Below, piece by piece: positions 9,729 through 46,105 of a stretch of DNA of 64,000 nucleotides (positions are counted from its first letter, which is position 1; each line of letters begins with the position of its first letter). The stretch is from Rhodococcus phenolicus. Its GTDB lineage: Bacteria > Actinomycetota > Actinomycetes > Mycobacteriales > Mycobacteriaceae. The position numbers and the translations under genes were made by a program. A model generated the notes under the pieces. The model was given only the letters and a program-made list of their open reading frames with translations, did not search any database and was not told where the DNA came from. The stretch lies in assembly GCF_001646785.1 (NCBI RefSeq), contig NZ_LRRH01000020.1, forward strand, positions 62,001-126,000, written 5' to 3'.

Positions 9729-10676
9729 TCACGGGGCGGGTAGTTCCTCGATCGAATCGACGATCCAGCTGCTCCACGTCACCGTGCCGCCCGACCGGCA
9801 TCCGTGGGAGAAGGACGGCTGCGGCGCACCGGCCTGCACGGCGACCCGGAAATTCCGTGCGCTCATCCGTAGCTCGACGACGGTGACCGAATCGGCCGAC
9901 GTCTCCGTGAGGTGTTCGAGCGCGTCCACCGCGACGATGCCGGTGGCCGAGCGGACCGCGTGCTCGGCGGCCTGCGCGGTTTGGGACAACGCGGCCCGTC
10001 CCCGCAGGTGATCGAGAGGCAGAACGCCGGCACGATATTCGCGCACGACATCGCGTGCCGATTCCGTTCCGAGCCTGCTGAAGTACAGCCCCTCGGGCAG
10101 CACGACCATGTTCGCGGCGAACCGGTCGCCGCCGATGTGGGTGCATTCCCACACGTCGGCATCGTCGACGGGCGTCAGCGCGGACACGATCGGCCGGCCC
10201 AGTTCCGCGCAGCACGCGTCCTTCTTCCCGTGCGTGCACACGGCGAACAACGGGACGTGCCGCGGCGCCCCGACATCCGGTTCGATGCCCGCCGCGCACG
10301 CGGCGAAGGGCAGGCCGGCGAGTTCGTCGTAGCCGGTCGCGGTTCCCTCCCGCATCCAGTGGCGCGTGCCGTCGGACCAGGCCAGGATCCACCGCGGCCG
10401 GTCGGCCGTCCGGGCGCGCGGCCGGCGGATCAGCGCCAGGCGAACGTGTCCGGGCGCGGCGTCGATGCGGTCGACGAGCGCCGGGGGCAGGACTCCCTCC
10501 GGGGCGGAATACGGCCACGGTCCCGGGTGCTCGATCAGGACCCACAATCGGGTTCTCCCGGCCCGTGCGACCATCGGCTCGCCCGCGGAGGACGACTGCC
10601 GGGAACAGGCGTCGGCGCGCCGACTGGTGAGCGCATCGGCCGGCTCCGTGCAGGTGTGGATCCGCTCCGTGGACAC
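9729..10676 (-). CDS. Sucrase/ferredoxin-like (Suc/Fer) thioredoxin-fold Fe-S protein
   Basis: The 315-residue protein carries CTHGKKDACCAELGRP near its middle and WECTHIGGDRFAAN downstream, the two signatures of the Suc/Fer-like family, whose members are thioredoxin-fold [2Fe-2S] proteins. The C-terminus has CRSGG. The start is GTG at 10676, preceded at 6-base spacing by AAGGAG on the minus strand; upstream TTG/GTG codons would begin inside the IdeR box. Position next to a siderophore-binding lipoprotein and under a shared IdeR box suggests a role in iron release or redox handling of siderophores. The biochemical role is inferred. Confidence 0.82.
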   Translation of the reverse strand: MSTERIHTCTEPADALTSRRADACSRQSSSAGEPMVARAGRTRLWVLIEHPGPWPYSAPEGVLPPALVDRIDAAPGHVRLALIRRPRARTADRPRWILAWSDGTRHWMREGTATGYDELAGLPFAACAAGIEPDVGAPRHVPLFAVCTHGKKDACCAELGRPIVSALTPVDDADVWECTHIGGDRFAANMVVLPEGLYFSRLGTESARDVVREYRAGVLPLDHLRGRAALSQTAQAAEHAVRSATGIVAVDALEHLTETSADSVTVVELRMSARNFRVAVQAGAPQPSFSHGCRSGGTVTWSSWIVDSIEELPAP

Positions 10677-10688
10677 CGGCGACTCCTT

Positions 10689-10707
10689 GTAGGTTAGGCT
10701 CACCAAT
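10689..10707. promoter_or_regulatory. IdeR/DtxR-type iron box between divergent genes
   Basis: The 19 bases match the IdeR consensus TTAGGTTAGGCTAACCTAA at 15 positions, including an uninterrupted AGGTTAGGCT core (10691-10700). The box lies 13 bases upstream of the Suc/Fer start and 75 bases upstream of the lipoprotein start, so a Fe(II)-loaded IdeR could repress both directions. This is the strongest iron box I see in the window. Confidence 0.85.
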
Positions 10708-10782
10708 ATTTGTTCGATGCTAGCCGGACGGCTGGGCAGCGCAGGAACCGCCCGGCCGTCGGCATGTCTTCAGGAGAGTGAA

Positions 10783-11721
10783 GTGGGACGGATTGCGACA
10801 CGGATGAATCGCGTGTTCTTCGGCGTGGTCGCGGCCACCACGGCGGTCGCGGTCACCGCGTGTGGAAGCAGCGGCGGCGGTGACGAGTCCGATACTGCCG
10901 CGGCCACGACGCGCACGGTTGAGCACGCGCACGGCGTGGCGGAGGTTCCGGACAGCCCGCAGCGGGTCGTCGTCCTCGAACCGGTCCAGCTCGACACCAC
11001 CATCGCCCTGGGCGCGACACCGGTCGGTGCCGCCGTGCTGAGCGAGGCCACCGGCGTTCCGGCCTATCTCGGCGAGGAGGCCGCCGGAATCGAAACGGTC
11101 GGTACCGTCGCGGAACCGAACGTCGAGGCGATCGCGGCGCTGGCGCCCGACCTGATCCTCGGCACCGAGACCCGCCACGGCGATCTGTACGAGCAGCTCG
11201 CGGGAATCGCACCGACCGTGTTCATGGCCTCGCAGGCCGACCCGTGGCAGGACAACGTCCGCTTCGTCGCCGGTGTCCTGGGCAAGGAGGACGCGGCGCA
11301 GACCCTTCTCGACGACTACACCGCGCGGTGCGAGGAGATCGCGACCGAGCACCGCACCGAAGGCCGGACCGCGCAGCTCATCCGGCCCCGCAACGACAAC
11401 CTCACCCTGTACGGGCCCACCTCGTTCGCCGGCAGCACCCTCGAGTGCGCGGGTCTGACGATTCCGCCGCGGGACTGGGAGAACTCGATCTCCGTCGACC
11501 TGTCGCCCGAACTGGCCGCGGAGGCCAAGGCCGACCTGGTCGTCGTCACCAGCGCGCAGCCCGACGATCCGGCGACCATGCCGGCCGCGGTGACCGCGAA
11601 CGCGCAGTACTTCCCGAATCTGCACCTCGTCGACCAGTCCTACTGGATCACCGGCGTCGGACCCCTGGGTGGAATGACGGTGCTCGACGACCTGGACCGA
11701 ATCCTCGGCGCAGAGGGCTGA
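10783..11721 (+). CDS. Siderophore ABC transporter substrate-binding lipoprotein
   Basis: The 312-residue protein has a lipoprotein signal peptide with lipobox VTAC (Cys near residue 27), then a periplasmic-binding (FecB/FhuD-like) fold: RVVVLEPVQLDTTIALGATPVG and PNVEAIAALAPDLILG (parts of the two lobes). GTG at 10783 is favoured because AGGAG precedes it at 7-base spacing; ATG at 10804 is an alternative that keeps the signal peptide. No permease or ATPase gene is adjacent, so it must use transporters encoded elsewhere. The IdeR box upstream indicates iron repression. It should capture ferric siderophores at the outer face of the membrane. Confidence 0.88.
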   Translation: MGRIATRMNRVFFGVVAATTAVAVTACGSSGGGDESDTAAATTRTVEHAHGVAEVPDSPQRVVVLEPVQLDTTIALGATPVGAAVLSEATGVPAYLGEEAAGIETVGTVAEPNVEAIAALAPDLILGTETRHGDLYEQLAGIAPTVFMASQADPWQDNVRFVAGVLGKEDAAQTLLDDYTARCEEIATEHRTEGRTAQLIRPRNDNLTLYGPTSFAGSTLECAGLTIPPRDWENSISVDLSPELAAEAKADLVVVTSAQPDDPATMPAAVTANAQYFPNLHLVDQSYWITGVGPLGGMTVLDDLDRILGAEG

Positions 11722-11841: not shown

Positions 11842-12378
11842 TCAGGTGAGCAGCGACCAGCCGACGCCACACACCGCCAGTGCCCACAGGACGCTGGTGC
11901 CGGTTCCGATGATGAACTGCTCGGAGGCCTGCGGCTCGCGCAGTTCCGGGTAGCGGGCCAGGCCCTTGACCGCCAGGACGATCGCGATGCCTTCGGGCCA
12001 GCCGGCCAGCACCGCACCGGCCACCGCCGCGCGTTCGAGGATGCCGATGACCCGGCCACCGCGCAACGGACCCGGAACCGGTGCCCCTCCGGGCGCCGCC
12101 GCGGCCGGCTCGGGACCGGCGTCGGGTTGGCGGCGCGCGATGCGGAACGCGGCGAGTACGGCCGGCCCGCCGCCGGTGATCGCCGCGAGCATCGTCAGCA
12201 CCAGGGTGGCGGCGTAGACGAACCCCTGCACCGCGGTCGTCGCCGACGCGGCGGTGGCGGCCCCGATCAGCGCGGCCGTCGAGATCACCGGCGCCGGCCA
12301 GACGGGCGCATTCGGGCGCAGGCTCAGCACGGGCGCGAGGGCGACGACGGCGAGCAGTGCCAGCGAGAGGACGGTCAA
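11842..12378 (-). CDS. Four-helix-like membrane protein partnered with a SatD-like regulator
   Basis: The 178-residue protein has about five hydrophobic segments (near residues 3-20, 28-45, 50-70, 105-120 and 155-175), and no catalytic motif is evident. A central linker is rich in Pro, Gly and Ala. TTG at 12378 is chosen because the upstream gene's TGA overlaps it (TTGA) and an AAAGGG-like ribosome binding site lies just upstream. Translational coupling shows it works with the SatD-like DNA-binding protein. I do not recognise the family; an integral membrane partner that senses or responds with the regulator is a guess from context. Confidence 0.65.
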   Translation of the reverse strand: MTVLSLALLAVVALAPVLSLRPNAPVWPAPVISTAALIGAATAASATTAVQGFVYAATLVLTMLAAITGGGPAVLAAFRIARRQPDAGPEPAAAAPGGAPVPGPLRGGRVIGILERAAVAGAVLAGWPEGIAIVLAVKGLARYPELREPQASEQFIIGTGTSVLWALAVCGVGWSLLT

Positions 12379-12956
12379 CGATCGGCCCTTTCGAGGAGTC
12401 GACGGGCGAGGGTGCATCCGGCGAGTTCGGCCTGCCATCCGGCGGCGGACAGGCGCTGGGACACGGCTTGTTTGCTGATGCCGAGTTCCGCGGCGATCCG
12501 GGCCTGGGTCAGTCCGGTCCGGGCGAGTGACACCGCCTCGTGGCCTTGCGGGGAGCGGCGGAGCACAACGGTCGCGAGGAGTGTGAGTGCGGCGTCGGCG
12601 TCGGCCGCCGCGGGTGCGTCGGAGCCGTCGACGGCGAGCTGCCCGATGGCGTTCTTGGCGCGTTCGACGGCCTGGCGGGCATGTTCGAAGGCCGGTCCGC
12701 GCCCCGCGCGGGTCTGTGCCGGCAGTGGGGTCTCGACGGGTCCGATACCGATGCCGATGCTCCACCGCTCACGTCGGAGCAGTTCGAGAACCAGATCGAC
12801 GACCGCCCCGGGGTCGTCGGTGACGGCTTGGACTTCGTCCCCGGCGGTCCGGTCGAACGGACGGGCCAGCCTCGGATCGTGGAGGTCGGTGAGCAGCCCT
12901 GCGACACGGTCGACGTCTCGGCGGCTGCCGCGTTGGTCGACCGTCAATACGAACAC
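12375..12956 (-). CDS. SatD-like protein with C-terminal helix-turn-helix
   Basis: The 193-residue protein contains the pattern AGDEVQAV followed by RWSIGIGIGPVETPLP and GPAFEHARQAVERAK, which I associate with the SatD family. A C-terminal helix-turn-helix follows, with LTQARIAAELGISKQAVSQRL (two overlapping parts). It is therefore probably a DNA-binding regulator. The GTG at 12956 lies next to two copies of an 18-bp operator-like sequence, suggesting autoregulation. The gene follows the DUF6875-like gene by 31 bases on the same strand and overlaps the downstream membrane-protein gene. SatD function is poorly known, so only the DNA-binding part is a confident inference. Confidence 0.7.
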   Translation of the reverse strand: MFVLTVDQRGSRRDVDRVAGLLTDLHDPRLARPFDRTAGDEVQAVTDDPGAVVDLVLELLRRERWSIGIGIGPVETPLPAQTRAGRGPAFEHARQAVERAKNAIGQLAVDGSDAPAAADADAALTLLATVVLRRSPQGHEAVSLARTGLTQARIAAELGISKQAVSQRLSAAGWQAELAGCTLARRLLERADR

Positions 12957-12959
12957 TGG

Positions 12960-13005
12960 TCAAGTGTGAAACCTTGATGAGAGAAAATCAAGCCTGAAAC
13001 CTTGT
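12960..13005. promoter_or_regulatory. Two tandem operator-like boxes TCAAG-N8-CTTG(A)
   Basis: Box 1 (12960-12977) is TCAAG-N8-CTTGA with perfect arms. Box 2 (12988-13005) is TCAAG-N8-CTTGT. They are spaced exactly 28 bp apart and share NNTGAAAC in the spacer, so both spacers and arms are conserved. They lie 4-49 bases upstream of the SatD-like start and overlap the last codons of the DUF6875-like gene. Period and symmetry suggest two dimer sites on the same face region of DNA, probably for the HTH protein encoded immediately downstream. Confidence 0.6.
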
Positions 13006-13734
13006 CTGCATGCGGGGGTGCGGCTCGCTCGCACGGGCGGGCTCGTCCCCGGTCAGGGCATGATGCGCGGTGATCGCGTCCACGGCGTCCCCGTCGTAGG
13101 CCATCCGCTGCGCGAGAGCGACCCGCAGCATCGACGGGAGGCCGGGGGCGAAGTTCTTGAAATAGGCCCGCAGCCAGTCCTGGCGGCCCATGAGGAACGG
13201 GAAGTCCGTCGTCATCATGGAGCGCGCGACGAGCATCGGGAGCGGGGCGTCGAGCGGGCGGAAGTCGTGATTCCAGAGCCCCGGCTGCGGACATCCGGGA
13301 TAGAACTGGCCGAGCATGCATCCCCGGTCGACGAACCGGGACTTGTATTCCGCGTGCACGACGTCGATCACGGAGCAGTCCGCGAGATCCGGCAGCACCG
13401 TGACCAACGTCTTCAGGCAGCGATCCTTGTCGGCCGGGCGTACGAGTTCGAGATAGATCTCGAACTGGTCGGCCACGATCGTGCCGAGGAGGGTCGCGTC
13501 GAGTTCCTGTCCGTGCACGAACGCCGCCGCGAAGAGCTGCCTGGTGATGGACGGGCGGACGAACGGGCACACCGGCCCGTCCCGGCCGAGGTCGGGATGG
13601 GGTGCGGTGAGATACTCACGCGCCCACGATCTCAGCTGGTGTGCACTCGATTCGTGCGCATACTCCACCGTGTCTCCGAAGAGGTCCACCCACACTGTGC
13701 CGGACCGGGTTCCCACGCACTTCTGGATCGGCAT
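12988..13734 (-). CDS. DUF6875-like protein next to an NRPS
   Basis: The 248-residue protein contains GPVCPFVRPSI, a DQFEIYLELVRP segment, CMLGQFYPGCPQPGLWN and MMTTDFPFLMGRQDW. I believe these belong to the DUF6875 family seen beside peptide biosynthesis genes, but I am recalling this rather than checking it. Three Cys/Pro-rich motifs (CPF, GCPQPG) suggest a conserved pocket. ATG at 13734 has GAGGA at good spacing; upstream in-frame starts to 14196 run through non-coding-looking sequence. The gene is divergent from the NRPS across a 681-base gap, so the two are probably controlled together. A tailoring or accessory role in making the peptide is inferred only. Confidence 0.6.
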   Translation of the reverse strand: MPIQKCVGTRSGTVWVDLFGDTVEYAHESSAHQLRSWAREYLTAPHPDLGRDGPVCPFVRPSITRQLFAAAFVHGQELDATLLGTIVADQFEIYLELVRPADKDRCLKTLVTVLPDLADCSVIDVVHAEYKSRFVDRGCMLGQFYPGCPQPGLWNHDFRPLDAPLPMLVARSMMTTDFPFLMGRQDWLRAYFKNFAPGLPSMLRVALAQRMAYDGDAVDAITAHHALTGDEPARASEPHPRMQTRFQA

Positions 13735-13787
13735 GGCGGTTTCCTCGCTCCCGAAAAGGCGAACGGCTGTCTGTGCCGATGTGGCCG

Positions 13788-13803
13788 ATATGTTGGAACA
13801 TAT
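13788..13803. promoter_or_regulatory. Palindrome ATATGTT-GG-AACATAT
   Basis: Perfect 7-base arms with a 2-base centre lie in an AT-rich patch upstream of the DUF6875-like gene. The form is typical of a dimeric repressor operator. No regulator gene in the window is an obvious owner. Confidence 0.45.
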
Positions 13804-14110
13804 TGTTTTGCAAGAAGATTCATCGGCGCCACAGGCGCATCGGGTGTGGACGCCGAGGTCGCTGACGCGCTGCCCGCACGTCGCACCGATGGCGCGGAAC
13901 CGCTGGACCGCAACGAAATTGAACGAGACGCTCGCGTGGAGTTCGTAACATCCACGGCGCCTGGGGGAGCGGGGCCGGTCGTGACGGTGCTCCCGCTCTC
14001 CGGCCGGGCAGTGTGCAGCGGAGTGGAGAATCCTTTCGTGGTGCGAAGCGCCGACGGTGGAGCTGGAGTTCGTTTCGACAGCATACAACGGGCTCAAGAT
14101 CGGATCTATG

Positions 14111-14152
14111 GGCCAAAACAAACTATGGGATTGTTTTACGGGTCGTTTGGCC
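14111..14152. promoter_or_regulatory. Nested inverted repeat upstream of the NRPS
   Basis: GGCCAAA (14111-14117) pairs with TTTGGCC (14146-14152), and AAAACAA (14115-14121) pairs with TTGTTTT (14131-14137). The two pairings overlap, so they are alternatives. The element lies about 265 bases before the NRPS start and may be an operator or an RNA switch in a long leader. Function is unknown. Confidence 0.35.
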
Positions 14153-14415
14153 GCGGCGAATCGCAGGTGACGCAGCGCGCAGCGGTCGACCACCACGCCG
14201 CTCGTCCGGCGCGAAGCGTTGCCGCAGACGGCCGTACGCGCCTACGCTTGTCGGATACATTTCGAGGCCCTGCCGCCGGCCCGCACCCCGTTCTCCAGGA
14301 AAAGTTGCGCCGCAGGTGATCACGACGAGCGCAGGCGAGACGGCAACCCGGCAGGCATGCGCCTCCGGCGTCGACCACGCACACGGATCGCAGTCTCCAC
14401 CTGAAGGGGGCCGCA

Positions 14416-17400
14416 ATGGCCACTCCCGTCATCCACAGCGAAGCCGATACCGGTGACGAGCACATCCCGGAGGGCGCATTCCCGTTGTCGCCCGCACAGT
14501 ACGGCATCTGGCTCGCCCAGCAGCTCGCCCCCGACGTCCCGTACGTGATCGCCCAGTACGTGGAGTTCCACGGCCACCTCGACCTCGACCTCGTGCGCGC
14601 CGTGGCGACGCGCGCAGGGCGCGAGTTCGAGACGGTGTTTCTCCGCCTGATCGAAGTGGACGGCCGGCCGTTCCAGATGATCGACCCGGACCTCGGATTC
14701 GACACCGAGGTCCTCGATTTCCGCGATGCGGACGACCCGCAGGCGGCCGCGGAGACCTGGCTCCGGCGTGACGTGGAAACCGCGATCGACCTGCTCGCCG
14801 ATCGCTTGTGCCGGATCGCCGTCCTCCGAGTCGGTCCCGAGGACTTCCTCGTGTACATCAAGGCGCACCACATCGCCCTCGACGGATACGGCGCCATGAT
14901 CCTGGTCGAACGAAGCGCGGCGATGTACACCGCGGCACTCGACGGGCGCACGATCGAGCGGAAGCCGCCGGCGGACCTGCGCACCCTGTACGAGAAGGAC
15001 CGGCAGTACCGCGACTCGCGCCGCTTCGTCGCCGACCGGGATTACTGGAGGGAACGAGTCCGGGACTTCGCCGAGTCGCCCGAGGTCTCGGAGGTGCCGC
15101 CCGCTGTCCGGACCATCACGACCCGGGCCGAACTGCCCGCGGCAACCGACGCCCGCCTGACCGATCCGTCGGCGCCGGGGGGTGCCTCCCCGGCCGCGGT
15201 GATCCTCGCGGCCTTCGCGTGCTGCTTCTCGCGGCTGTCCGGTCGATGCGAGGTTCTCGTGCACATTCCCGTGTCGGCGCGCACGACAGCCGAACTACGA
15301 CGATCCGCCGGGATGCTGGTGAACGTGGTGCCTCTGCGGATCCGGATCGTGCCGGACGAGCCGATCGAGGATCTGGTGCAGCGCACGCACCTCGAACTGG
15401 TCGGGGCGCTGCGGCACCAGGCGTGCGGCATCGAGGACATTCGCCGATCGTCGGTCGCGCCCATGTCCCGGTTCTCGGTGCCACTGGTCAACGTGATGCT
15501 CTTCGATCAGCAACCCCGGCTCGGGGACCTCGTCGGAATCCCGCACGTTCTGTCCCGCGGGCCGGTCGGGGACCGGCTGATCACCGTCTCCCGCACGGGC
15601 ACCCCGGCCGGGACGACGATCGAATTCCGCGCCAACCCCAACCGCTACCGCGTGGACGAGGCGGCCGAACAATGCGCGCAGATCGCCGAGGTTCTCGAAG
15701 AATTCCTGACCGTCGATCCCCGGACTCCGCTCACGTCCGTCCATCCCCCGAGCGCGGTCGCGGCGGCACCCCGTTATCGGGCGACCGAGCTGCTGGCCCA
15801 CTGGACCGAAGTGCTCGCCGGAACACCGGCGCCACCGAATCTTTCCCCCGACCGGAGCGCGGTCGCCCGGCCGGCGGGCCCGACCGCGATCGGGCGCCGA
15901 TGGGCGGAGGCCGTGCACCCGCTCGGGTCCGACCTGTACCGCGGAATCGTCGCGCTCGCCGATCGGCACGGCACCGATCCCTTCACCGTCCTCCACGCCG
16001 TGACGGCGATCCTCGTCGCCCGGCTGACCGGCACCGACGACGTCGTTGTCGGCACCGACCCGCCCGCCACCGGCGACAGCGCACCCGCCATCGCGGAATT
16101 CGTGCCCCTGCGCACCCGCGTTCGCGGTGCGACCGGCATGGCGGCGCTGCTCGACGACGTACGGCGAGTGGATGGAGAAGCCTTCGAGCACGCCGCAGTC
16201 CCCGGACAGCGGCTGCTCGACGCGTTGGCACCGACGCGGAACGGATCCCACACACCGCTGTTCGGGGTGACGGTCGAACGGGACGCCGCCGCGGCCGCCG
16301 CCTCCGCGGAACACACGGCCCTCGGCGCCGTCGATCTGCGGATCGGCCTCACCGGACCGTCCGCCGCGACCGCCGACGCCGCCCTCCGGATCCGGTACGA
16401 CCCGGACGTCCACGACGCCGGCACGATCGCCGGGTTCGCACACCGGATGCACCGGCTCCTCGCGGCGGCCGTGGCCGACCCGGCGATCCCGATCGGTGAC
16501 GTCGACCTGCTCGACGTCACCGAGCGCCGAGTCCTCGCCCCCGTGACGGGACCGCCCTCGGTCCCGGACCGCACGCTGCCCGAGATCCTGGCCGCGGCAG
16601 TCGCGGTCGATCCCGACGCGACCGCGGTCACGTGCGGGCAGGTCCGGATGAGCTACCGGGAGCTCGACGCGACCTCCGCGCGGCTGGCGCGCCTGCTCGT
16701 CGAGGCGGGAGCCGGACCCGAACGTTTCGTGGCCATCGGAATGGCCCGCTCCGTCGAATCCGTGCTGGCGGTGTGGGCGGTCACCAGGACCGGGGCCGCA
16801 TTCGTGCCGGTGGATCCCGGCTACCCGCAGGACCGGATCGACTTCATGCTCCACGACTGCGGCGCGGTGCTCGGACTGACCACGGTCGAGCAGCGGAGCC
16901 GGCTCTCCGACCGGGTCCGGTGGGTGATGCTCGACGATCCGCGGGTGATCGCGACCCTGACCCGGTACCCGGAACGCACGGTGACCGCTGCGGACGGTCG
17001 AGCCATCGTGCGCCCCGACCAGCCCGCCTACCTGATCTACACCTCCGGTTCCACCGGCACGCCGAAAGGTGTGGTCGTCGCGCACCGCGGCCTGTCGAAT
17101 CTGGTCGCGCACACACGCACCCTCGCCACCGCGGACTCCCGGGTGTGGCACGGCACCTCGCCGAGCTTCGATCTGGCGGTGTTCGAACTGCTCGTGACGT
17201 TCGGGGCGGCCGGGCACCTCGTGGTGGGACACACGACCGTGTTCGGCGGCGAGGAACTCGCGCGGGAACTGGACGCCGCGCACGTCACCCACCTCTGCAC
17301 CACACCCGCGGTCCTGGCGACACTCGACCCCGACCACGTGCAGGGGATCCGCTTCGTCAGTGTCGGCGGTGAGGACTGCCCACCCGGGCTGGTGGATCGA

Positions 17401-20400
17401 TGGGCGCGCGGCCGCCGGATGGTCAACGGATACGGGCCCAGCGAGATCACCGTGCAGATGGCCTCGGCGGACCTCACGCCCGGCACCTCCGTCACCGTCG
17501 GCGGGCCGGGCCCCGGATTCCGCGCCGTCGTCCTCGATCCGCGACTGCACCCCGTGCCGGTGGGCGTCGTCGGTGAGCTCTACGCGGCCGGTCCCGGGCT
17601 CGCCCGCGGATACCACCGACGCCCGGGAGCGACCGCCGTCCGATTCGTCGCCGACCCGTTCGGGCCGCCCGGGTCGCGGATGTACCGAACCGGGGACCTG
17701 ATGCGATGGGACGACGGGGACGACGGATCCGCCGGAACCCGGCCGGAACCGGTGCTGGCCTACCTCGGTCGCGCGGATCTGCAGGTGAAGGTGCGCGGTC
17801 GTCGGCTCGAACTCGGCGAGGTCGAGGCGGCACTGGCGAGCCTGGCCGAGGTGTCGCAGGCCGTCGCCGTCGTCCGGGAGGACGAGGGCCGGGAACGCCT
17901 GGTCGCGTACGTGGTGCCCGTGCCCGGGCGGATGCCGGACCCGGTGGCGCTCCGCGCCTCGGTCACGGCGATGCTGCCGGAATACATGGTGCCGGCCACC
18001 GTCGTGCCGCTGGCCGAGATGCCGCTCACCGCCAACGGCAAACTCGACCGCGCCGCTCTACCGGCACCGACGTTGCGTGGCGCGGTGTACCGTGCCCCCC
18101 GATCCCGGATCGAGCGCACGCTGGTGGGCGTGTTCGCGGAGGTGCTGCACCTCCCACCCGACCGGATCGGAATCGACGACGACTTCTTCGAACTCGGTGG
18201 TGATTCGCTGGTGGCCACCGGAGCCGTGGCCCGCATCAGGGCCGTGCTGCAGGCCGAGGTACCGATCCGGGTGATCTTCGAGGCGCCGCGCGTCGCGGAA
18301 CTCGCGCCCAGGCTCGCCGACTGCGGCCTCGCCCGGACGCCGCTCGTTCCGCAGTCCCGACCGGAACGAATCCCGTTGTCCTACGCGCAATCACGGCTCT
18401 GGTTCATCGATCGCTACGAAGGACCGTCCGCGACGTACAACATTCCGATGGCGGCCCGGCTGACCGGGCGAGTGGACGTCGCGGCCATGCAGGCGGCGTT
18501 CGGGGACGTCGTGGCTCGGCACGAGAGCCTGCGCACGGTGTTCGCGGAGATCGACGGAGTCGCCTTCCAGCAGATCCTGCCGCCGGCCCCGGCGACGCTG
18601 CCGGTGTCGACGATCCCGCCCGACGACGTGACGGACGCGATCCGCGCACAGGCACGGCGGCCGTTCGACCTGTCCACCGACATCCCGGTGCGTGCGGCGC
18701 TGCTGCGTACCGGACCCGCCGACCACATGCTCGTGCTGGTACTGCACCACATCGCCGGCGACGGCGCGTCGATGGTGCCGCTCGTGCGCGATCTGCTGCG
18801 CGCCTACGCGGCACGCTCGGCCGGGGCCGAACCGGACTGGGAACCCCTCCCGGTGCAGTACGCCGACTACACGCTGTGGCAACGCGCCGTGCTGGGCGGC
18901 AACGACGACCCCGGCAGCCCGATGCACGCCCAGTTCGCCTACTGGCAGCGGGAACTGGCCGGCGTGCCCGAATGCGTGACACTGCCATTCGACCGTCCCC
19001 GCCCCCCGATGCAGTCCTCCCGCGGCGGGCAGGTCGAGTTCACCGTGCCCGCGCGCCTGCGGGCCGCGGTCGACGACCTCGCCAGGGCGCACGGTGCCAC
19101 CGCGTCGATGGTCTTTCAAACGGCACTGGTCGTGCTGCTGCACAAACTCGGCGCCGGGCCGGACATCACCCTCGGCGGGCCGGTCGCCGGCCGCACCGAC
19201 GAAGCGCTCACGGACCTCGTGGGTTTCTTCGTCAACACCTGGGTGCTCCGGGTGGAGGACATCGCGGGGAACCGGTCGTTCGCCGAGATCCTCGACCGCG
19301 TCCGCGACAAGGCGCTGGCCGCCTACGAGAACCAGGATGCGCCGTTCGAGCGGCTCGTCGAACTGATCGCCCCGGAGCGTTCGACCGCGCACCACCCCCT
19401 GTTCCAGGTCGCTTTCGCGCTGCAGAACAACCCGGTGCCGCGGCTCGACCTTCCCGACCTGCACGTCGAGGTCGTCCCGATCCCTACCGAGATCGCCCGC
19501 TTCGACCTGTACGTCGGCCTCGCCGAGAGCACCCTGTCGGGAACGACCGCACCGGACGCCGGGGCCCTGCACGGGACGATCGAATACGCCGTCGACCTGT
19601 TCGATCGGGACACCGTCGAACACTTCGCCACCCGGTACCTGCGCGTCCTGGAATCGACGGTGACCTCCCCGGGCGACCCGCTCGGCCTCGTCGACCTGCT
19701 CGACCCGGTCGAGCGGCACCACCTCGTCGAGCAGTGGAGCGGTGCCGCGGTGTCCGCGCCCCAGCGCACCGTCGCCGCGCTGTTCGCCGAGCAGGCAGCG
19801 GCGACACCGGACGCCGTGGCGCTGACCTTCGGCACCCGCAGCTGGACGTACCGGCAGCTCGACGCGAACGCCAACCGGCTCGCGCGCCTGCTCGTCGAAC
19901 TGGAGGTGGGCGCCGAATCCGTCGTCGCCGTCGTCGTGGGACGGTCGCCCGCGCTGATCGTCGCGCTCCTCGCGATCACCGCCGCGGGCGGTGCGTACCT
20001 TCCCCTCGACCCCGACTACCCGAGCGAACGCACCGACTTCCTCCTCACCGACGCGGCGCCCCGGATGGTGCTCACCGACGACCGGCACTCGTCCGTGCCG
20101 GGCCACCGCCCCCACCTGGTCCTCGACACGGAGGGAGTCCCGCGGTCCCACCGTGCGCCCGACGACGCGCGGCCGGTCACCGACGACGACCGGATCCGCC
20201 CCCTCCGCCCCGCCGACACGGCGTACGTCATCTACACCTCAGGCTCCACCGGCGTGCCGAAGGGAGTGGCGATCACCCACGGGAACCTCGCGCACCTGGT
20301 GGTGCACAGCCCACTGTCGAACCGCGACCGGAAGCGGATGTCCACGATCTCCTCGCCCGGATTCGACGCGTCGGTGCTGGAAATCTGGCCGGCGCTGCTC

Positions 20401-23400
20401 ACCGGCTCGGAACTCGTGCTCGCCCCACCCGGACCGATCGATCCGTCGACCGCGGCGACGGTGGTGACCACGCAGGACGTGACGTGGATGTTCGCCACGA
20501 CACCGCTGTTCCACGCCCTGGCAGATCCCGCGGTCGTGCCGGCCCGGATGTGGGACCGGGTGGACCGGGTGGTCACCGGGGGCGACGTGCTCTCAACCGC
20601 CGTCCTCCGGCGATTCCGCGCCGCGCACCCGCGGACGGCGGTGGTCAACGCATACGGGCCGACGGAGACGACCGTCTGCGCTACGACCCACGAGATGCCG
20701 GGGACCACCGGGTCCGACGAACCGGATCTCCCGCACGAAACGGTGCCGATCGGCCGTCCCCTCCCGGGCGTCCGGGTCTACGTGCTCGACACCGGTCTGC
20801 TGCCGGTGCCGGTCGGTGTCCCCGGCGAGCTGTACATCACCGGTGCGGGCGTGGGCCGCGGATACACCGGTCGCGCGGCCCTGACCGCCTCCCGATTCGT
20901 CGCATGCCCGTTCGGCGACCCCGGGGCACGGATGTACCGCTCCGGCGACCTCGTGCGCTGGGTTCACCGCAATCGCACCGACGATCGAGCACCCGCCCCC
21001 TACCTCGAATTCACGGGCCGCACCGACGATCAGATCGAGGTGCGCGGATTCCGGATCGAACCCGGCGAGATCGAAGCGGCGCTGAACCGACATCCCGATG
21101 TCGCGCACGCCGTGGTGGTGGCCCGGGACACCCCCGGTGACGATGGCCGGAAACAGCTGGTCGGATACGTGGTGCTGAACAGGGAACCGGTAGTCCCCGG
21201 CGAACCGGTGCCCCCGGACGACGTCCGCATCACCGGCATCCGTCGCCACCTGACGCACCGGCTGCCGGACTACATGGTCCCGGCGGCGCTCGTCACACTG
21301 GCCGAGCTGCCGGTGACGGCGCACGGGAAACTCGACCGTCGGGCGCTGCCGGCCCCCGACTTCGCCGCGACCGGCCACGGATACGTGGCGCCGTCCACAC
21401 CGACCGAGGAAACCCTGGCACAGATCTTCGCGACGGTGCTCGGGATCGACACCGTCGGTGCACACGACTCCTTCTTCGCGCTCGGCGGCGACTCGATCAT
21501 GTCGATCCAGTTGGTCGCGCGGGCCAAGACCGCCGGCCTGGTGTTCACGCCGCGCGACGTCTTCGAACACAAGACCGTCGCCGCGCTCGCGGCAATAGTC
21601 ACGGCACCTGCCCCCGCGGCGCCGGCACTCGCGGAACTGCCCGGCGAAGGAATCGGCGACGTCCCGCTCACCCCGATCCTGCGATGGCTGCTCGACACCG
21701 GAGGATGCCGTCCCGGATTCCGGCAGGCGGTACTGCTGCCGCTCCCGACCGGCCTCCGGGACGACACCGTGCGCGCGGCGCTCCAGGCCGTCGTGGACCG
21801 GCACGACATGCTGCGCGCCCGGCTCTACACCGATGCCGGCGACGCACCCGGATGGCACTTCGAGACCCGGCCGATCGGGTCGGTCCCCGCCGGGGAGATC
21901 GTGCAGCGCATCCCGGTCGAGACCACCACCGGACCGGGATTCACGTCGATCGCCGCGGCACAGTGCGCAGCGGCGACGGACCGGCTGAACCCCGTTGCCG
22001 GGGTGATGCTGCAGAGCGTGTGGTTCGACGCCGACACCGACTCCCGTCTCCTGCTCGTCGCCCACCACACGGTGATCGACGGAGTGTCCTGGCGCATCCT
22101 GGCCACCGACCTCGCCGCCGCATGGGAGCGACTCGCGCACGGCCTCGAGCCCGATCTCGACCCGGTCGGCACATCCATGCGCCGATGGGCGCACGGCCTG
22201 ACCGAGGAAGCTCGCCGCGGGACCCGCACCGCCGAACTGGACCGGTGGCGCGCAACGCTGACCGGTGCCGATCCGATGCTCGGGACCAGACCGCTCGATC
22301 CCCGGATCGACGTCGGCGCCACGATCGGCACCCGGACCGTCGACATTCCCGCCCCGACCACCGCGGTGTTGCTCACGACCGTTCCGCAGGCGTTCCACGG
22401 CAGAGCGGTCGACGGTCTCCTCGCCGCCCTCGCCGCGGCGGTGATCGCCCGGCGCGCAGAGAACGGCACCCAGCTCGCAGAGGTCCTGGTGGGCCTCGAA
22501 GGACACGGACGGGAAGAACAGGTGATGCCCGGCGCCGACCTGTCTCGGACCATCGGCTGGTTCACCACTTCGTACCCGGTGCGAGTCGACCTCGCCGGCA
22601 TCGACCCCGCCGGCATGGCGCGCGGCGACGCCGCGGCGGCGGCAGCGGTCAAGACCGTCAAGGAACAACTGCTCGCGATCCCCGACCACGGAATCGGATT
22701 CGGCATCCTGCGCTATCTCGACGAGACGACCCGCGCGGTGCTCGAACCGTTCCCCGGGCCTCAGATCGCGTTCAACTACCTGGGGCGGATCGGTACCCCG
22801 ATCCCGGCCGCGGCCGCCGATGCCGTTCCGTCCGATGGTCTCGACGCTGTTCCGCCCCAGGGTCTCGACCCCGTGCCCGCGGGGGGTCTCGACCCTCACC
22901 AGCCGCTACCGGCCGTGGTCACGATCAACACGGCTGCGGTCGACACCCCCGACGGGACCGTCCTGCGCGCAGACTTCGCCTACGCCACCGGTGTCGTCGG
23001 CGCAGAGGAGATCGCCGCACTCGCGGACCGGTGGCGAACCATGCTGACCGGTCTCGCGCGCCACGTCGCCCGCCCCGGAGCGGGCGGACACACCCCGTCC
23101 GACTTTCCTCTGGTCGAGTTGCCGCAGCACCGTATCGACGATCTGGAACTGCGCTGTCCCGCACTCGAGGACGTGTGGCCGCTGACCCCGCTACAGGCCG
23201 GACTGCTGTTCCACGCCCTGCAATCCGATTCGATCGACGCGTACACGGTGCAACTGACCCTGCGCCTCGGTGGGACGGTCGACGCCCCGCGGCTGCGGCG
23301 AGCCGTCGACACCCTGGCGACGCGACACCCCAACCTCCGGGTCACCTTCGATCTCGACGCAGCGGGGCCACCGGTCCAGATCGTGCACGGCGGCCTCGGG

Positions 23401-26400
23401 ATTCCCCTCCTCGAGCGAGATCTCAGCGGACTCGACGCCGCCGCCCGCGACCGCGAGCTCGGCGACCTGCAGACCGCCGACCGCACCCGGCGATTCGACC
23501 CGGCCCGCGGGCCGCTGCTCCGGCTGACCCTGGTCATCCTCGGACCGGACGACGCGCGGCTGGTGTTCACCGGCCACCACCTGCTGCTCGACGGCTGGTC
23601 CGCGCCGCTGCTGCTGAAGGAACTGCTCGTCCTCTACGCGAACGACACGGACACCGCGGCACTCCCGCCCGTGCGGCCCTACCGGGACTATCTGCGCTGG
23701 CTCGTGCAGCAGGACGACGTCTCCGCCCGGACCGCGTGGGCACGCTACCTCGGCGGGCTCGACCGGCCCACCCTCGTCGCGGCGGCCGCGCAGGACGCGC
23801 CCGTGTCGGCACTGTCCGAGGAATCGACCTGCGCGCTCACCACCGCCGCGACCCGGCGCCTGCGCGCATACACCCGCGAACGCGCGGTCACCGCGGGAAC
23901 CCTGATGCAGGTCGCGTGGTCGATCGTGCTGGCCGGACTCACCTCGCACGACGACGTGGTCTTCGGAACCACCGTCTCGGGGCGACCCGCAGACGTACCC
24001 GGCATCGAAGAGATGATCGGGCTGTTCGTCAACACCGTCCCCGTCCGGGTCCGCCTCGATCCCTACGAGACGCTCGGGTCGCTGGTCGAGCGGATCCGCA
24101 CCGAGCAAACCGACCTGCTGGACCGGCATCACCTCGGGCTCACCGAGATCCAGCATGCGAGCGGTCCCGCCGCCTCCTTCGACACACTGACGGTGTTCGA
24201 GTCCTATCCGGTCGACCGCCCCGCGCTGTCGGCGGCCATCGACCTCGCCGGCCTGCAGGTCCGCGAGGTCACCGCCCGCGACTCGGGGCACTACCCGCTG
24301 ACCCTGATCGCGCACCTGGACGACCGGATGCATCTGCGCCTCAGCTACCGGCCGGATCTGTTCGCGCGCAGCACGGCCGACGAGATCGTCTCGCGGGTCG
24401 CCCGGGTCCTCGAGACCGTCGTCACCCGACCGGACCTGCCGCTCGGGCGCCTCCGGGTCGCCGGCAGGAACACCCCGCACACCCTGACCACGCCAGCCCG
24501 CCCGGACGCGGAGCCCGACCGGACCTGGACCGGGATCCTCGACACCTGGTCCCGGCGGACTCCCGACGCCGTCGCGGTGGTCGACGGACGGCAGCGATGG
24601 ACCTACGCCCGATTCGACCGGCAGGTGAACAGGCTCGCGCGGCTGCTCCTCGCCCGCGGAGTCCGCCCGGAAACCCCCGTCGCCGTGGCGATGCGGCGTT
24701 CGCTCGACGGGTTGGTCGCGATGCACGCCGTCGTCCGGGCCGGCGGCGTGTACGTACCTGTCGACCCCGGCCATCCCGCCGATCGGCTGGCCGAGATCCT
24801 TGCCGCGGTCGATCCGCTGTGCCTGCTCACCCGCGACACCGGGATCGATCTGCCCGGGACGATCCCGGTCGTGTCCGTCGGCGACGCCGACCTGGACCGC
24901 TTCGCCGCATCGGCGGTCACCGACACCGACCGCGCGGCCCCGGTTCGGTCCGACAACGGCGCGTACATGATCTTCACCTCGGGGTCGACGGGAAAGCCCA
25001 AGGGTGTCGTCGTCACCCACCGCGGCATCGCGAACCTGGCGGGCCGGCTGACGGACGTCGCGGACCGGACGTCGCGGATAGCGCAGTCCGTGTCGCCGAA
25101 CTTCGACGTGTCGCTGCTCGAATCGTTCGTGGCGTTCGCGGCGGGAGCGCAGCTCGTCGTGGTGCCGCCCGAGGTGTGTGCCGGGGCCGACCTCACGCAC
25201 TTCCTCGCCGCAGCGCGGATCACCCACCTGTACACGACCCCCGCGGTCCTGGCGACGCTCGACCCGGTGGCACTGCCGGACCTGACGTTCGTGAGCGTCG
25301 GGGGCGAGACGTGCCCGCCGTCGCTGGTGACGACCTGGGCGCCCGGCCGTCACATGGTCAACGGGTACGGCCCGAGCGAGGCTACGGTGATGTCGAACGT
25401 GCTCGACCCGCTCGCCCCCGGCGCGGCCGTCACCGTCGGTGCGCCGATGCCGGGCTTCACCGAGACCATGCTCGACCGGCGGCTGCAGCCGGTGCCGGCC
25501 GGCGCGGTGGGGGAGCTGTACCTCTCCGGACCCGGGCTGGCACGAGGCTATCTCGGGCAGCCCGGCACGACCGCGACCCGCTTCGTCGCGGACCCGTTCG
25601 GGGAGCCCGGCGCCCGGGCGTACCGCACCGGCGACCTGATGCGAGGAACAGTCGTGTCCGGTCGCATCCAACCCCGCTTCGTCGGACGCGCGGACCTCCA
25701 GGTCAAGCTGCACGGTCTGCGCATCGAACCCGAGGACGTCGAGGCCGCACTGCTGCGCCATCCCGCGATCACCCGCGCCGCCGTGGTGGTGCGCGACGAC
25801 GGCGGCGGCGACCGGCTGGTCGGCTACGTGGTCGCGGACGGTGCACCGATGATCGACACCGCGGACGTGCTGCGCCGCGCGGCCGAAGTGCTGCCTCGGT
25901 ACATGGTCCCGACGGCACTCGTGGTGCTGGACGGACTCCCCGTCACCACCGGCGGAAAGGTGGACCGTGCGGCGTTGCCCGCCGCCGCGCCCGCCCCTGC
26001 CCGATACCGTCCACCCCGAACCGCGAGGGAACGTGCCACGACAGCCGCGTTCGCCGCGGTGCTCGACCGCGACCGCGTCGGTCTCGACGACAACTTCTTC
26101 GACCTCGGCGGGAACTCGCTGGCAGCTGCCGCCGTGGCGTCGGCACTGCGCAGCGAGCTGGGCCGGGATCTCCCGCTCGGGCTGATCTTCCTCGATCCCA
26201 CACCGGCCGGTCTGGCCCGGCGCCTCGACGACACGGCCGCGGAGACCATCGCCGTGCCGTCCGGGACCCTCGACGTGATGATCACCCTTCGTGGGAGCGG
26301 GCACCGGACACCGGTGTTCTGCGTGCATCCCGCGATCGGCATCTCCTGGGTGTACGCCGGGCTCCTGCGCTACCTGCCGGACCGTCCGCTGTACGGACTG

Positions 26401-27039
26401 CAACTGCCGTTCCTGTCCGGCGGTCCCACCTACGCGACGCCCGCCGCGCTCGCGCACCGGTACGTCGAGGAGTTGCGGACCGTCCGGCCGCGCGGGCCGT
26501 ACACCCTGCTCGGCTGGTCCCAGGGGGGACTGATGGTCCACCACATGGGCGTCGAGCTGCGCGACGCGGGCGAGACCGTCGACCTGGTGATCCTGGACTA
26601 CTACCCGACCGAACGTGACCGGCGAACCCTCACGCTCGCCGAGATGCTCACCGGACTGGGAATCGAGATCCCCGGCGACGGGGGAGAGACGCTGTCCTAC
26701 GAGGACGCCGTCGGTGCGGTCGATCGGGCCGTCGGGCACGACACGGGACTCACTGCCCGTGACCTCGAGCGGATCATGGCGGCGTATACGCAAGGCCGGG
26801 CGGATGCGCCGAACCTCGCGCTGCGCTCGTTCGACGGGGACCTGCTCTTCTTCGCCGCCGCGCGATCCCTCGACGGGCCCGACGGCGCCTCACCCGCGCT
26901 GTGGCGGCCGCTCGTGACCGGAACGATCACCGAGCACACGATCGGATGCGACCACCTGCAGATGATGACCCCGGATACGCTCGCGACGCTCGGGCCGCTG
27001 CTGGCCGGCCACCTCGACGCGCGCCCCGGCGGATCGTGA
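14416..27039 (+). CDS. Trimodular nonribosomal peptide synthetase
   Basis: The 4,207-residue enzyme reads, by motif: starter-type C1 (residues 20-450; HHIALDG near 152), an extra C-terminal half of a C domain lacking the His motif (about 453-700), A1 ([10 protein letters not shown] near 873), carrier 1 (GGDSL near 1260), C2 (HHIAGDG near 1443), A2 ([10 protein letters not shown] near 1939), carrier 2 (GGDSI near 2354), epimerase E (HHTVIDG near 2550), C3 (HHLLLDGWS near 3054, after [13 protein letters not shown]), A3 ([10 protein letters not shown] near 3520), carrier 3 (GGNSL near 3895) and thioesterase (GWSQGG near 4033, His near 4178). It should make a tripeptide with a D-residue at position 2, N-acylated if C1 is a true starter. 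Hand-aligned specificity codes are DLFCSGGVQ, DALFVGAVC and DVLYSGGVM; none is a sure match. AGGGGG precedes the ATG. Confidence 0.95.
22822..22893 (+). repeat. Three in-frame 24-bp repeats inside the NRPS epimerization domain
   Basis: Three consecutive 24-base units (22822-22845, 22846-22869, 22870-22893) each end in GGTCTCGAC and encode an octapeptide of form (A/P)VPxxGLD. They lie shortly after the FNYLGR motif of the E domain (about residue 2785), probably in a surface loop. Copies differ at several bases but keep frame and length. Confidence 0.85.
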
Positions 27040-27051
27040 CGGGTGCGGTGA

Positions 27052-27759
27052 TCAGGACGCCTTCGTCGGGTCCCGATCGGTGTCGTCGACGGCGTCGAGT
27101 GCGGAACCCGCGGGTTCGGGGAGCCGCGCCTCGAGCCACAGTCCTGCGACTCCCACGAGCAGGCACACGACCGTCACGGCCATGAGCGCCGGATCGGTCC
27201 GTCCCGTCAACGCGTCACCGAGCAGGACCACCCCGATCGTGCCGGGCAGGATTCCCACGAGCGTGGCCAGCGTGTACGGCACCGGGCGCACAGACGACAC
27301 CGCGCAGCAGTAGTTCACCACCGAGAACGGTGCCGGGGCGATCAGGCGCAGCGATCCGACCGCGAGCCAGCCGCGCCGCGCGAGCCGCAGATCCACCGCC
27401 TTCGCCGCCGGATGCGTCAGATACGACGAGACCGCCCGGCGGCCGATCCGGCGCACCAGCAGGAAGGCGAGCACCGCGCTCACCGTGGTCGCTGCGACGG
27501 AGACGGTGATCCCGGTGCCAGCCCCGAACAGCACGCCAGCGCTGAGGGTGAACATGGTGCGCGGCACCGGCGCGATCGTCACGAGGGTGTGCACCAGGAA
27601 GAACACGAGGAGGAACGATGGTCCGATCGCCTCCGACCAGCCACGGATCTCCCCGATCGACGGGTGGGGGAGCAGGGTGGCGGCCACGGCCACTGCGACC
27701 AGGGCAACGAGTGCGGCGAGGAGCCCGAGGATTCTGCGGTCGTTCAGGAGCCTCGTCAC
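27052..27759 (-). CDS. TVP38/TMEM64-family membrane protein
   Basis: The 235-residue protein has about six hydrophobic segments and the family core (FTLSAGVLFGAGTGI, then GSLRLIAPAPFSVVNYCCAVSSV in two parts, then GILPGTIG). It corresponds to Rv1491c, which also lies next to mutA in M. tuberculosis. TVP38/DedA-type proteins are membrane proteins implicated in lipid scrambling or membrane homeostasis. The GTG at 27759 gives a short cytoplasmic N-terminus before the first segment. It converges with the NRPS, whose stop is 12 bases away, and is divergent from mutA. Its presence marks where the conserved gene order resumes after the accessory insert. Confidence 0.85.
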   Translation of the reverse strand: MTRLLNDRRILGLLAALVALVAVAVAATLLPHPSIGEIRGWSEAIGPSFLLVFFLVHTLVTIAPVPRTMFTLSAGVLFGAGTGITVSVAATTVSAVLAFLLVRRIGRRAVSSYLTHPAAKAVDLRLARRGWLAVGSLRLIAPAPFSVVNYCCAVSSVRPVPYTLATLVGILPGTIGVVLLGDALTGRTDPALMAVTVVCLLVGVAGLWLEARLPEPAGSALDAVDDTDRDPTKAS

Positions 27760-45670: not shown

Positions 45671-45698
45671 GCATGTGCAGTTCCGGGAACCGCCGATG

Positions 45699-45784
45699 TG
45701 TCCGAGGGGGGACTTGAACCCCCACGTCCGTTAATAGGACACTAGCACCTCAAGCTAGCGCGTCTGCCATTCCGCCACTCGGAC
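45699..45784 (-). tRNA. tRNA-Leu (anticodon GAG), copy 1
   Basis: On the minus strand an 86-base tRNA begins GTCCGAG and ends CTCGGAC plus discriminator A, with the 7-bp acceptor stem intact. The anticodon arm is CTAGC-TTGAGGT-GCTAG, giving anticodon GAG for CUC/CUU leucine codons, and a long variable arm is present, as for tRNA-Leu. The T arm contains GTTCAAG. CCA is not encoded. It is identical over 86 bases to copy 2 at 46020-46105. Confidence 0.96.
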
Positions 45785-45899
45785 CGGGATGTGCGTGGAC
45801 ATGCCGGTAGCTCCCGCTCCCGCGGGCGCTGACGAGAACAGTAGCGCATGGATGCGCAATTCCCCAATTCGGGTGCCGATGTCGCGCGATACCCCGGGA

Positions 45900-45945
45900 C
45901 TCGTGCGCGGTTCCGGCAACGGCCGCTACCGAAAGCGCGCACGAG
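45900..45945. repeat. Palindrome family A copy 3
   Basis: CTCGTGCGC (45900-45908) pairs with GCGCACGAG (45937-45945), and internal parts resemble the CGGTAGC/GCTACCG core of family A with several mismatches. It sits between the two tRNA-Leu genes, the only family A copy in the window not placed between convergent protein genes. Confidence 0.65.
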
Positions 45946-45961
45946 CGGAAGGAAGCCGAGA

Positions 45962-46003
45962 ACGACGAAGGCCCCGGACCTGTCGGTTCGGGGCCTTCGT
46001 CGT
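45962..46003 (-). terminator. Terminator of tRNA-Leu copy 2
   Basis: ACGACGAAGGCCCCG (45962-45976) and CGGGGCCTTCGTCGT (45989-46003) form a perfect 15-bp stem 17 bases past the 3' end of tRNA-Leu copy 2, followed on the minus strand by TCTCGGCTTCCTTCC. This is one of the strongest hairpins in the window. Confidence 0.85.
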
Positions 46004-46019
46004 CTGTCTCAACTCAGAG

Positions 46020-46105
46020 TGTCCGAGGGGGGACTTGAACCCCCACGTCCGTTAATAGGACACTAGCACCTCAAGCTAGCGCGTCTGCCATTCCGCCACT
46101 CGGAC
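46020..46105 (-). tRNA. tRNA-Leu (anticodon GAG), copy 2
   Basis: The 86-base sequence is identical to the tRNA-Leu(GAG) at 45699-45784, with the same acceptor stem, anticodon loop TTGAGGT and long variable arm. The flanks differ, and it has its own terminator at 45962-46003, so each copy is transcribed as a separate unit or read through from right to left. The divergent M20 peptidase gene starts 117 bases to its right. Confidence 0.96.

Follow-up and report, generated by a model that had tools for sequence, protein, structure and literature searches.

Proteins of the DUF6875 family have been described as heme-binding and L-tryptophan-oxidising, under the name cytochrome P422, and one of them acts on a tryptophan-derived indole, according to the available part of PMC13307353. 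The same part of that paper, citing a 2025 preprint by Ma et al., presents ZigI, a DUF6875 protein with a tailoring role in the gene cluster for zigralone, and names no nonribosomal peptide synthetase (NRPS) among the zig genes given. In biffamycin biosynthesis, hydroxylated tryptophan is supplied to an NRPS by BifE, a heme-dependent tryptophan hydroxylase of the tryptophan-2,3-dioxygenase subfamily encoded in a cluster of 17 genes (PMC13285481, in the portion available, where Shi et al. 2023 is cited for enzymes of this kind). Rhodococcus NRPS clusters that open with a starter-type condensation (C) domain, and have no known product, appear in the accessible part of PMC5550956. The locus described here lies in a stretch of 64,000 nucleotides from Rhodococcus phenolicus, referred to in its entirety as the window, and comprises a DUF6875 gene and a single large NRPS gene, transcribed divergently. 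The DUF6875 protein belongs to the same Pfam family as ZigI but, unlike the zig genes, has an NRPS as its partner; it differs from BifE in protein family. The NRPS resembles the Rhodococcus clusters just mentioned in its predicted starter-type opening, though neither this gene pair nor DUF6875 is named in that part of PMC5550956. We propose, with confidence that is evenly balanced, that the two genes form a self-contained cassette for an N-acylated L-D-L tripeptide, in which the DUF6875 protein would carry out the heme-dependent oxidation of a tryptophan-type building block. The features concerned are listed below in window coordinates, where A denotes adenylation, PCP peptidyl carrier protein, E epimerization and TE thioesterase domains.

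12988..13734, minus strand: DUF6875 (PF21780) protein of 248 amino acids (aa), predicted to be a small heme enzyme that oxidises amino acids (Pfam match, conserved cysteines and structure model)
13735..14415, no strand: gap of 681 bases between the divergent genes (inverted-repeat and shuffle tests)
14416..27039, plus strand: NRPS, of domain order C(starter type)-C*(half)-A1-PCP-C-A2-PCP-E-C-A3-PCP-TE
14473..15765, plus strand: C1, N-terminal condensation domain of predicted starter type, with HHIALDG present
15940..16524, plus strand: C*, half condensation domain after C1, matching the C-terminal part of the profile only
16564..18066, plus strand: A1, pocket code DLFCSGGVQ
19756..21372, plus strand: A2, pocket code DALFVGAVC
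21658..23115, plus strand: E domain of module 2 (domain search and C-domain tree)
24511..25995, plus strand: A3, pocket code DVLYSGGVM
26293..27015, plus strand: thioesterase, motif GWSQGG

The NRPS is encoded by one open reading frame (ORF) of 4207 aa, in which the Pfam matches comprise five stretches of condensation type, three each of AMP-binding and carrier domains, and a single thioesterase domain. Four HHxxxDG motifs and three carrier GGxS motifs accompany the thioesterase motif, as expected of a multimodular NRPS ending in a TE. An initial annotation of this DNA, made from the letters alone, had called the gene a trimodular orphan NRPS with a thioesterase; the domains and motifs confirm this, while the E domain, the starter-type C1, the half C domain and a second such gene pair elsewhere in the genome had gone unmentioned. 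A half C domain following a starter-type C domain was seen also in the orthologs, at loci L041, L049, L051 and L063, and in L196, a region that gave no DUF6875 match.

The likely stereochemical course of chain assembly was read from a tree in which 81 C domains carried labels for their position, and which took in stretches of at least 350 aa from loci other than the named ones. C1 is one of 25 N-terminal C domains that cluster together, apart from the L and D types; C2 falls within a group of 44 C domains that follow a carrier domain; and C3 falls within 12 that follow an E domain. All three groups are separated by 100/99 branches, in a tree without characterised C domains. Such groups usually correspond to starter, L-accepting and D-accepting types respectively, and on that basis the memberships of C1, C2 and C3 predict the order acyl, L, D, L.

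Assignment of the amino acids is less direct. Two control pockets read with the same alignment columns gave DFWNIGMVH and DVWHFSLVD, which we take to match the codes for threonine and serine. Beyond the first Asp, the only polar residues in the A1-A3 codes are single Ser, Cys, Tyr or Gln residues. By our own reading the A2 code appears to be of aromatic type, its pocket presumably resembling known aromatic pockets. A1 and A3 form sister clades (99/91) in the A-domain tree, which holds 77 rows from loci other than the named ones, the latter contributing a further 90 A domains outside the tree. None of the three codes is tied to tryptophan. This tree was examined for a class of pocket codes restricted to A domains linked with DUF6875, and none was found; the DUF6875-linked label changes 8 times along it, compared with 24 times when shuffled, and it contains several subclades that are exclusively DUF6875-linked. 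A literature search with six pocket codes, those of A1 and A3 not among them, returned no match, and no product was named for this gene pair in the search results examined, in line with the initial statement that no product can be named from sequence.

On the proposed pathway, C1 would acylate residue 1, and A1, A2 and A3 would each load a hydrophobic or aromatic amino acid; residue 2 would be converted to the D form by the E domain and then joined to residue 3 by the following D-accepting C domain; and the TE would free the acyl-L-D-L tripeptide, either linear or cyclised. The DUF6875 protein would oxidise its tryptophan-type building block either as the free amino acid or while attached to the assembly line. 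Residues 1 and 3 are likelier targets of this oxidation than residue 2, because the orthologous locus in genome G051 lacks the C-A portion of module 2 in its NRPS, yet retains DUF6875.

The identity of the partner protein is clear: it matches PF21780 with 205.9 bits (cut-off 24.5) over profile positions 2-176 of 178, which bears out its earlier description as DUF6875-like. The accompanying remark that the NRPS has no other tailoring enzymes overlooked the DUF6875 protein itself, a likely tailoring enzyme. A longer ORF of 402 aa, beginning at 14196, is probably an over-extension, since codon-position GC drops upstream of 13734, where the alignment with the orthologs also starts, at the same Met. 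Two cysteines, Cys56 and Cys148, are invariant (49/49 and 52/52 DUF6875 sequences, the window protein included), and the invariant residues lie in GRxGxVCP and GxMxGQFYPGC stretches. Among the solved structures compared, the predicted structure is closest, at 16-17% identity, to AglA, a Cys-ligated heme hydroxylase of the YqcI/YcgG family (PF08892) which acts on arginine derivatives and hydroxylates the guanidine nitrogen. Cys56 is predicted to be the heme ligand, a prediction that becomes directly testable through the apparent resemblance in fold to AglA. At the sequence level the DUF6875 protein gave no match to PF08892 even at E values up to 5, only PF21780 being found; a search of solved-structure sequences with a DUF6875 profile gave no match, and with the single protein as query the sole match was a nitrite reductase, at E 0.29.

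The likeness to AglA bears also on which residue is modified. A distinctly less probable version of the same cassette, although one to be taken seriously, is that the DUF6875 protein hydroxylates something other than tryptophan (a different aromatic amino acid, an aliphatic one, or a nitrogen atom), either on the carrier or after release. The nitrogen chemistry of AglA itself speaks for it, as do the A-domain pockets, which suit hydrophobic or aromatic residues but do not single out tryptophan, and the wide variation in pocket code among DUF6875-linked NRPSs. Against it stand the description of the family as L-tryptophan-oxidising and its member acting on an indole, both from the available part of PMC13307353, and the presence, beside one DUF6875 gene from outside the bacterial family to which this genome belongs, of a Trp_dioxygenase-family gene. 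Oxidation of a tryptophan-type unit remains the preferred reading.

That the two genes behave as a unit emerged from comparison of 18 genomes of the genus, this one included. A DUF6875 gene of the window type is present in 6/18, the other five at 70-76% identity, and in all five (G111, G123, G156, G051 and G201) it is paired with an orthologous NRPS. In G111, G123, G156 and G051 the gene order is that of the window: SatD-like, DUF6875, NRPS, VTT, mutase; in G201 the check covered DUF6875, the NRPS and where VTT lies. The two flanking genes lie outside the cassette:

12375..12956, minus strand: SatD-like/HTH protein (SatD match of 26.3 bits, just under the cut-off of 29)
27052..27759, minus strand: VTT-domain membrane protein (domain match)

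Among the 11 genomes lacking the pair in which the VTT gene was found, nine have the SatD-like gene 44-77 bases beyond it, as measured between alignment ends; G098 and G027 gave no SatD-like match in the 12 kb taken, and G202, which is 75% complete, no VTT match. Because the flanks adjoin each other where the pair is absent, DUF6875 and the NRPS are taken to be gained or lost together, as one 14-kb piece at one site. The earlier view of a minimal two-gene system inserted between conserved core genes is borne out in both respects.

Within the orthologous NRPSs it is module 2 that varies. In G111, G156, G123 and G201, but not in the window, an insert interrupts the A2 domain, and in the two cases tested, G156 and G111, this insert is a methyltransferase. 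At loci L067 and L070 the methyltransferase within A2 of module 2, which A2 of the window lacks, would suggest gain or loss of methylation at one locus. The NRPS of G123 (L069) is spread over two overlapping reading frames within A2, owing either to a sequencing error or to a real break.

To gauge how common the pairing is, DUF6875 was searched for in 201 genomes of the bacterial family, where 40 genomes gave 49 matches, and up to 10 kb was taken on each side of every match (less at contig ends). NRPS domains lie near 27/49 of these loci; as background, condensation domains and the 10 kb around them account for 4.4% of the present genome, a figure from one genome to be set beside orthologous loci that are not independent. 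Among the 80 nearest named loci, mostly from Nocardia and thus a sample biased to close relatives, 72 have NRPS domains. Class-wide, DUF6875 occurs in 13/296 sampled genomes, and 4/11 matches outside the family are accompanied by NRPS domains (about 8 kb on each side where the contig allowed); these 11 loci hold 98 neighbouring genes, of which Pfam and NCBIfam were each run on 10, with 8 genes common to the two sets. The genome that holds the window carries a second pair (contig C100:7398-15215, L040), in which a DUF6875 protein 49% identical to that of the window stands with a bimodular NRPS, C-A-PCP-C-A-PCP-TE. The co-occurrence check suggested in the initial annotation therefore finds a recurrent pairing, and the idea that the combination is unusual was not borne out. 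Two DUF6875 genes about 2.9 kb apart were seen beside an NRPS at L108 and L117, in Nocardia concava and N. seriolae.

These counts also bear on the highly unlikely case that DUF6875 and the NRPS are chance neighbours which work apart. The 22/49 family loci with no NRPS domain in the stretch taken would favour it, as would the divergent orientation, which precludes a single operon, and the ISL3-type and DDE_Tnp_1_4 transposase genes that separate the pair in G051 (L064:10740-13058). The frequency of NRPS domains at the other family loci, the second pair in this genome, and the joint presence and joint absence of the two genes across the genus all argue instead for the cassette. At the 22 loci without an NRPS domain, 150 neighbouring genes were called, and 63, hand-chosen from 145, were given to Pfam; among the 25 of 90 families listed, queuine tRNA-ribosyltransferase (4) and MMPL (4) lead. 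A tryptophan theme at these loci was considered and rejected: Trp_dioxygenase occurs in one, among the listed families, with ten proteins probed and its place not located.

NRPS clusters are abundant in rhodococci (PMC11433410 and PMC5550956, each in the part available), and this genome, of 6.28 Mb in 232 contigs, has 50 condensation-domain matches, so that an orphan NRPS is by itself unremarkable. The kind of pathway is ordinary; what makes it of interest is the heme-enzyme partner, together with the frequency of the pairing. What was an orphan NRPS beside a domain of unknown function becomes a concrete prediction, a heme enzyme oxidising one building block, and the recurrence of the pair offers a simple handle for genome mining. 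Relatives with a single module, C-A-PCP-TE plus DUF6875, also exist, and through them the A-domain code of the oxidised residue might be reached most directly. More tentatively, and with less than even odds, DUF6875 and YqcI/YcgG might be two arms of a single superfamily of compact heme oxygenases, Cys-ligated, acting on amino acids and built on a small P450-like scaffold, with DUF6875 the standard tailoring partner of a large set of Rhodococcus and Nocardia NRPSs that begin with a starter C domain; the 14-kb cassette would then be a very small complete example, a portable pathway to N-acyl peptides bearing an oxidised indole.

A siderophore had been raised as an option, and a hydroxamate product of the NRPS would be favoured by the glycines at positions 301 and 322, correctly noted earlier in both A1 and A3, and by iron-related genes at 9729-11721. 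One of the latter encodes a substrate-binding protein (10717-11721) whose best NCBIfam match is of the Fe(3+)-dicitrate type, at 121 bits, far below the cut-off of 320, and which lies near an IdeR-like box. The A1-A3 pockets are mostly hydrophobic, and none of the three codes fits a hydroxyornithine-type pocket, which holds polar residues. The iron genes lie outside the conserved cassette and find no match in the stretches around four orthologous pairs. Lys/Orn N-hydroxylase has 15 matches in the genome and none on the window contig (C86), in agreement with the earlier statement that no ornithine hydroxylase is present here; the one strong match (349 bits) lies about 300 bases from the only MbtH match of the genome, on contig C214. 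With no hydroxylase match on the contig, with mostly hydrophobic pockets and with iron genes outside the cassette, the siderophore option is unsupported, and we consider it very improbable. The IdeR/DtxR-like box itself (10689-10707) has 3 mismatches, against 0.13 such sites expected in the window, and at least one match arose in 11/100 shuffles. It stands between the Peripla_BP_2 substrate-binding gene (10717, plus strand) and a sucrase/ferredoxin-like gene (9729-10706, minus strand), a pair that is perhaps iron-regulated and unrelated to the NRPS.

The gap across which the two cassette genes face each other has the 681 bases first reported, and was said to hold two palindromes, given without coordinates, and to be a dedicated bidirectional control region. 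It contains eight inverted-repeat pairs. Two perfect palindromes with 7-nt arms at most 12 bases apart do exist (ATATGTT/AACATAT at 13788 and AAAACAA/TTGTTTT at 14115), but two or more were found in 149/500 dinucleotide shuffles, which is the chance level. An imperfect 36-nt palindrome at 14214-14249 (14/18 pairs) was equalled in 6/300 shuffles and is thus mildly above chance. None of these palindromes was seen in the orthologous gaps of G111, G156 and G123 (that of G051 is interrupted). Dedicated operators were set aside, the perfect palindromes being at chance and the imperfect one above chance yet not conserved, and these results do not show a dedicated bidirectional control region; the imperfect palindrome is a possible operator candidate for the NRPS alone. 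A simple scan of the gap detected no sigma-70-like promoter and a single terminator-like site, against an expectation of 0.5. Near 14239-14267 a block shows similarity to the corresponding region of the orthologs, and might be the NRPS promoter; the 14214-14249 palindrome sits directly before this block conserved upstream of the NRPS. Elsewhere in the window, the minus strand carries two tRNA-Leu(gag) genes separated by about 230 bases (45698-46105).

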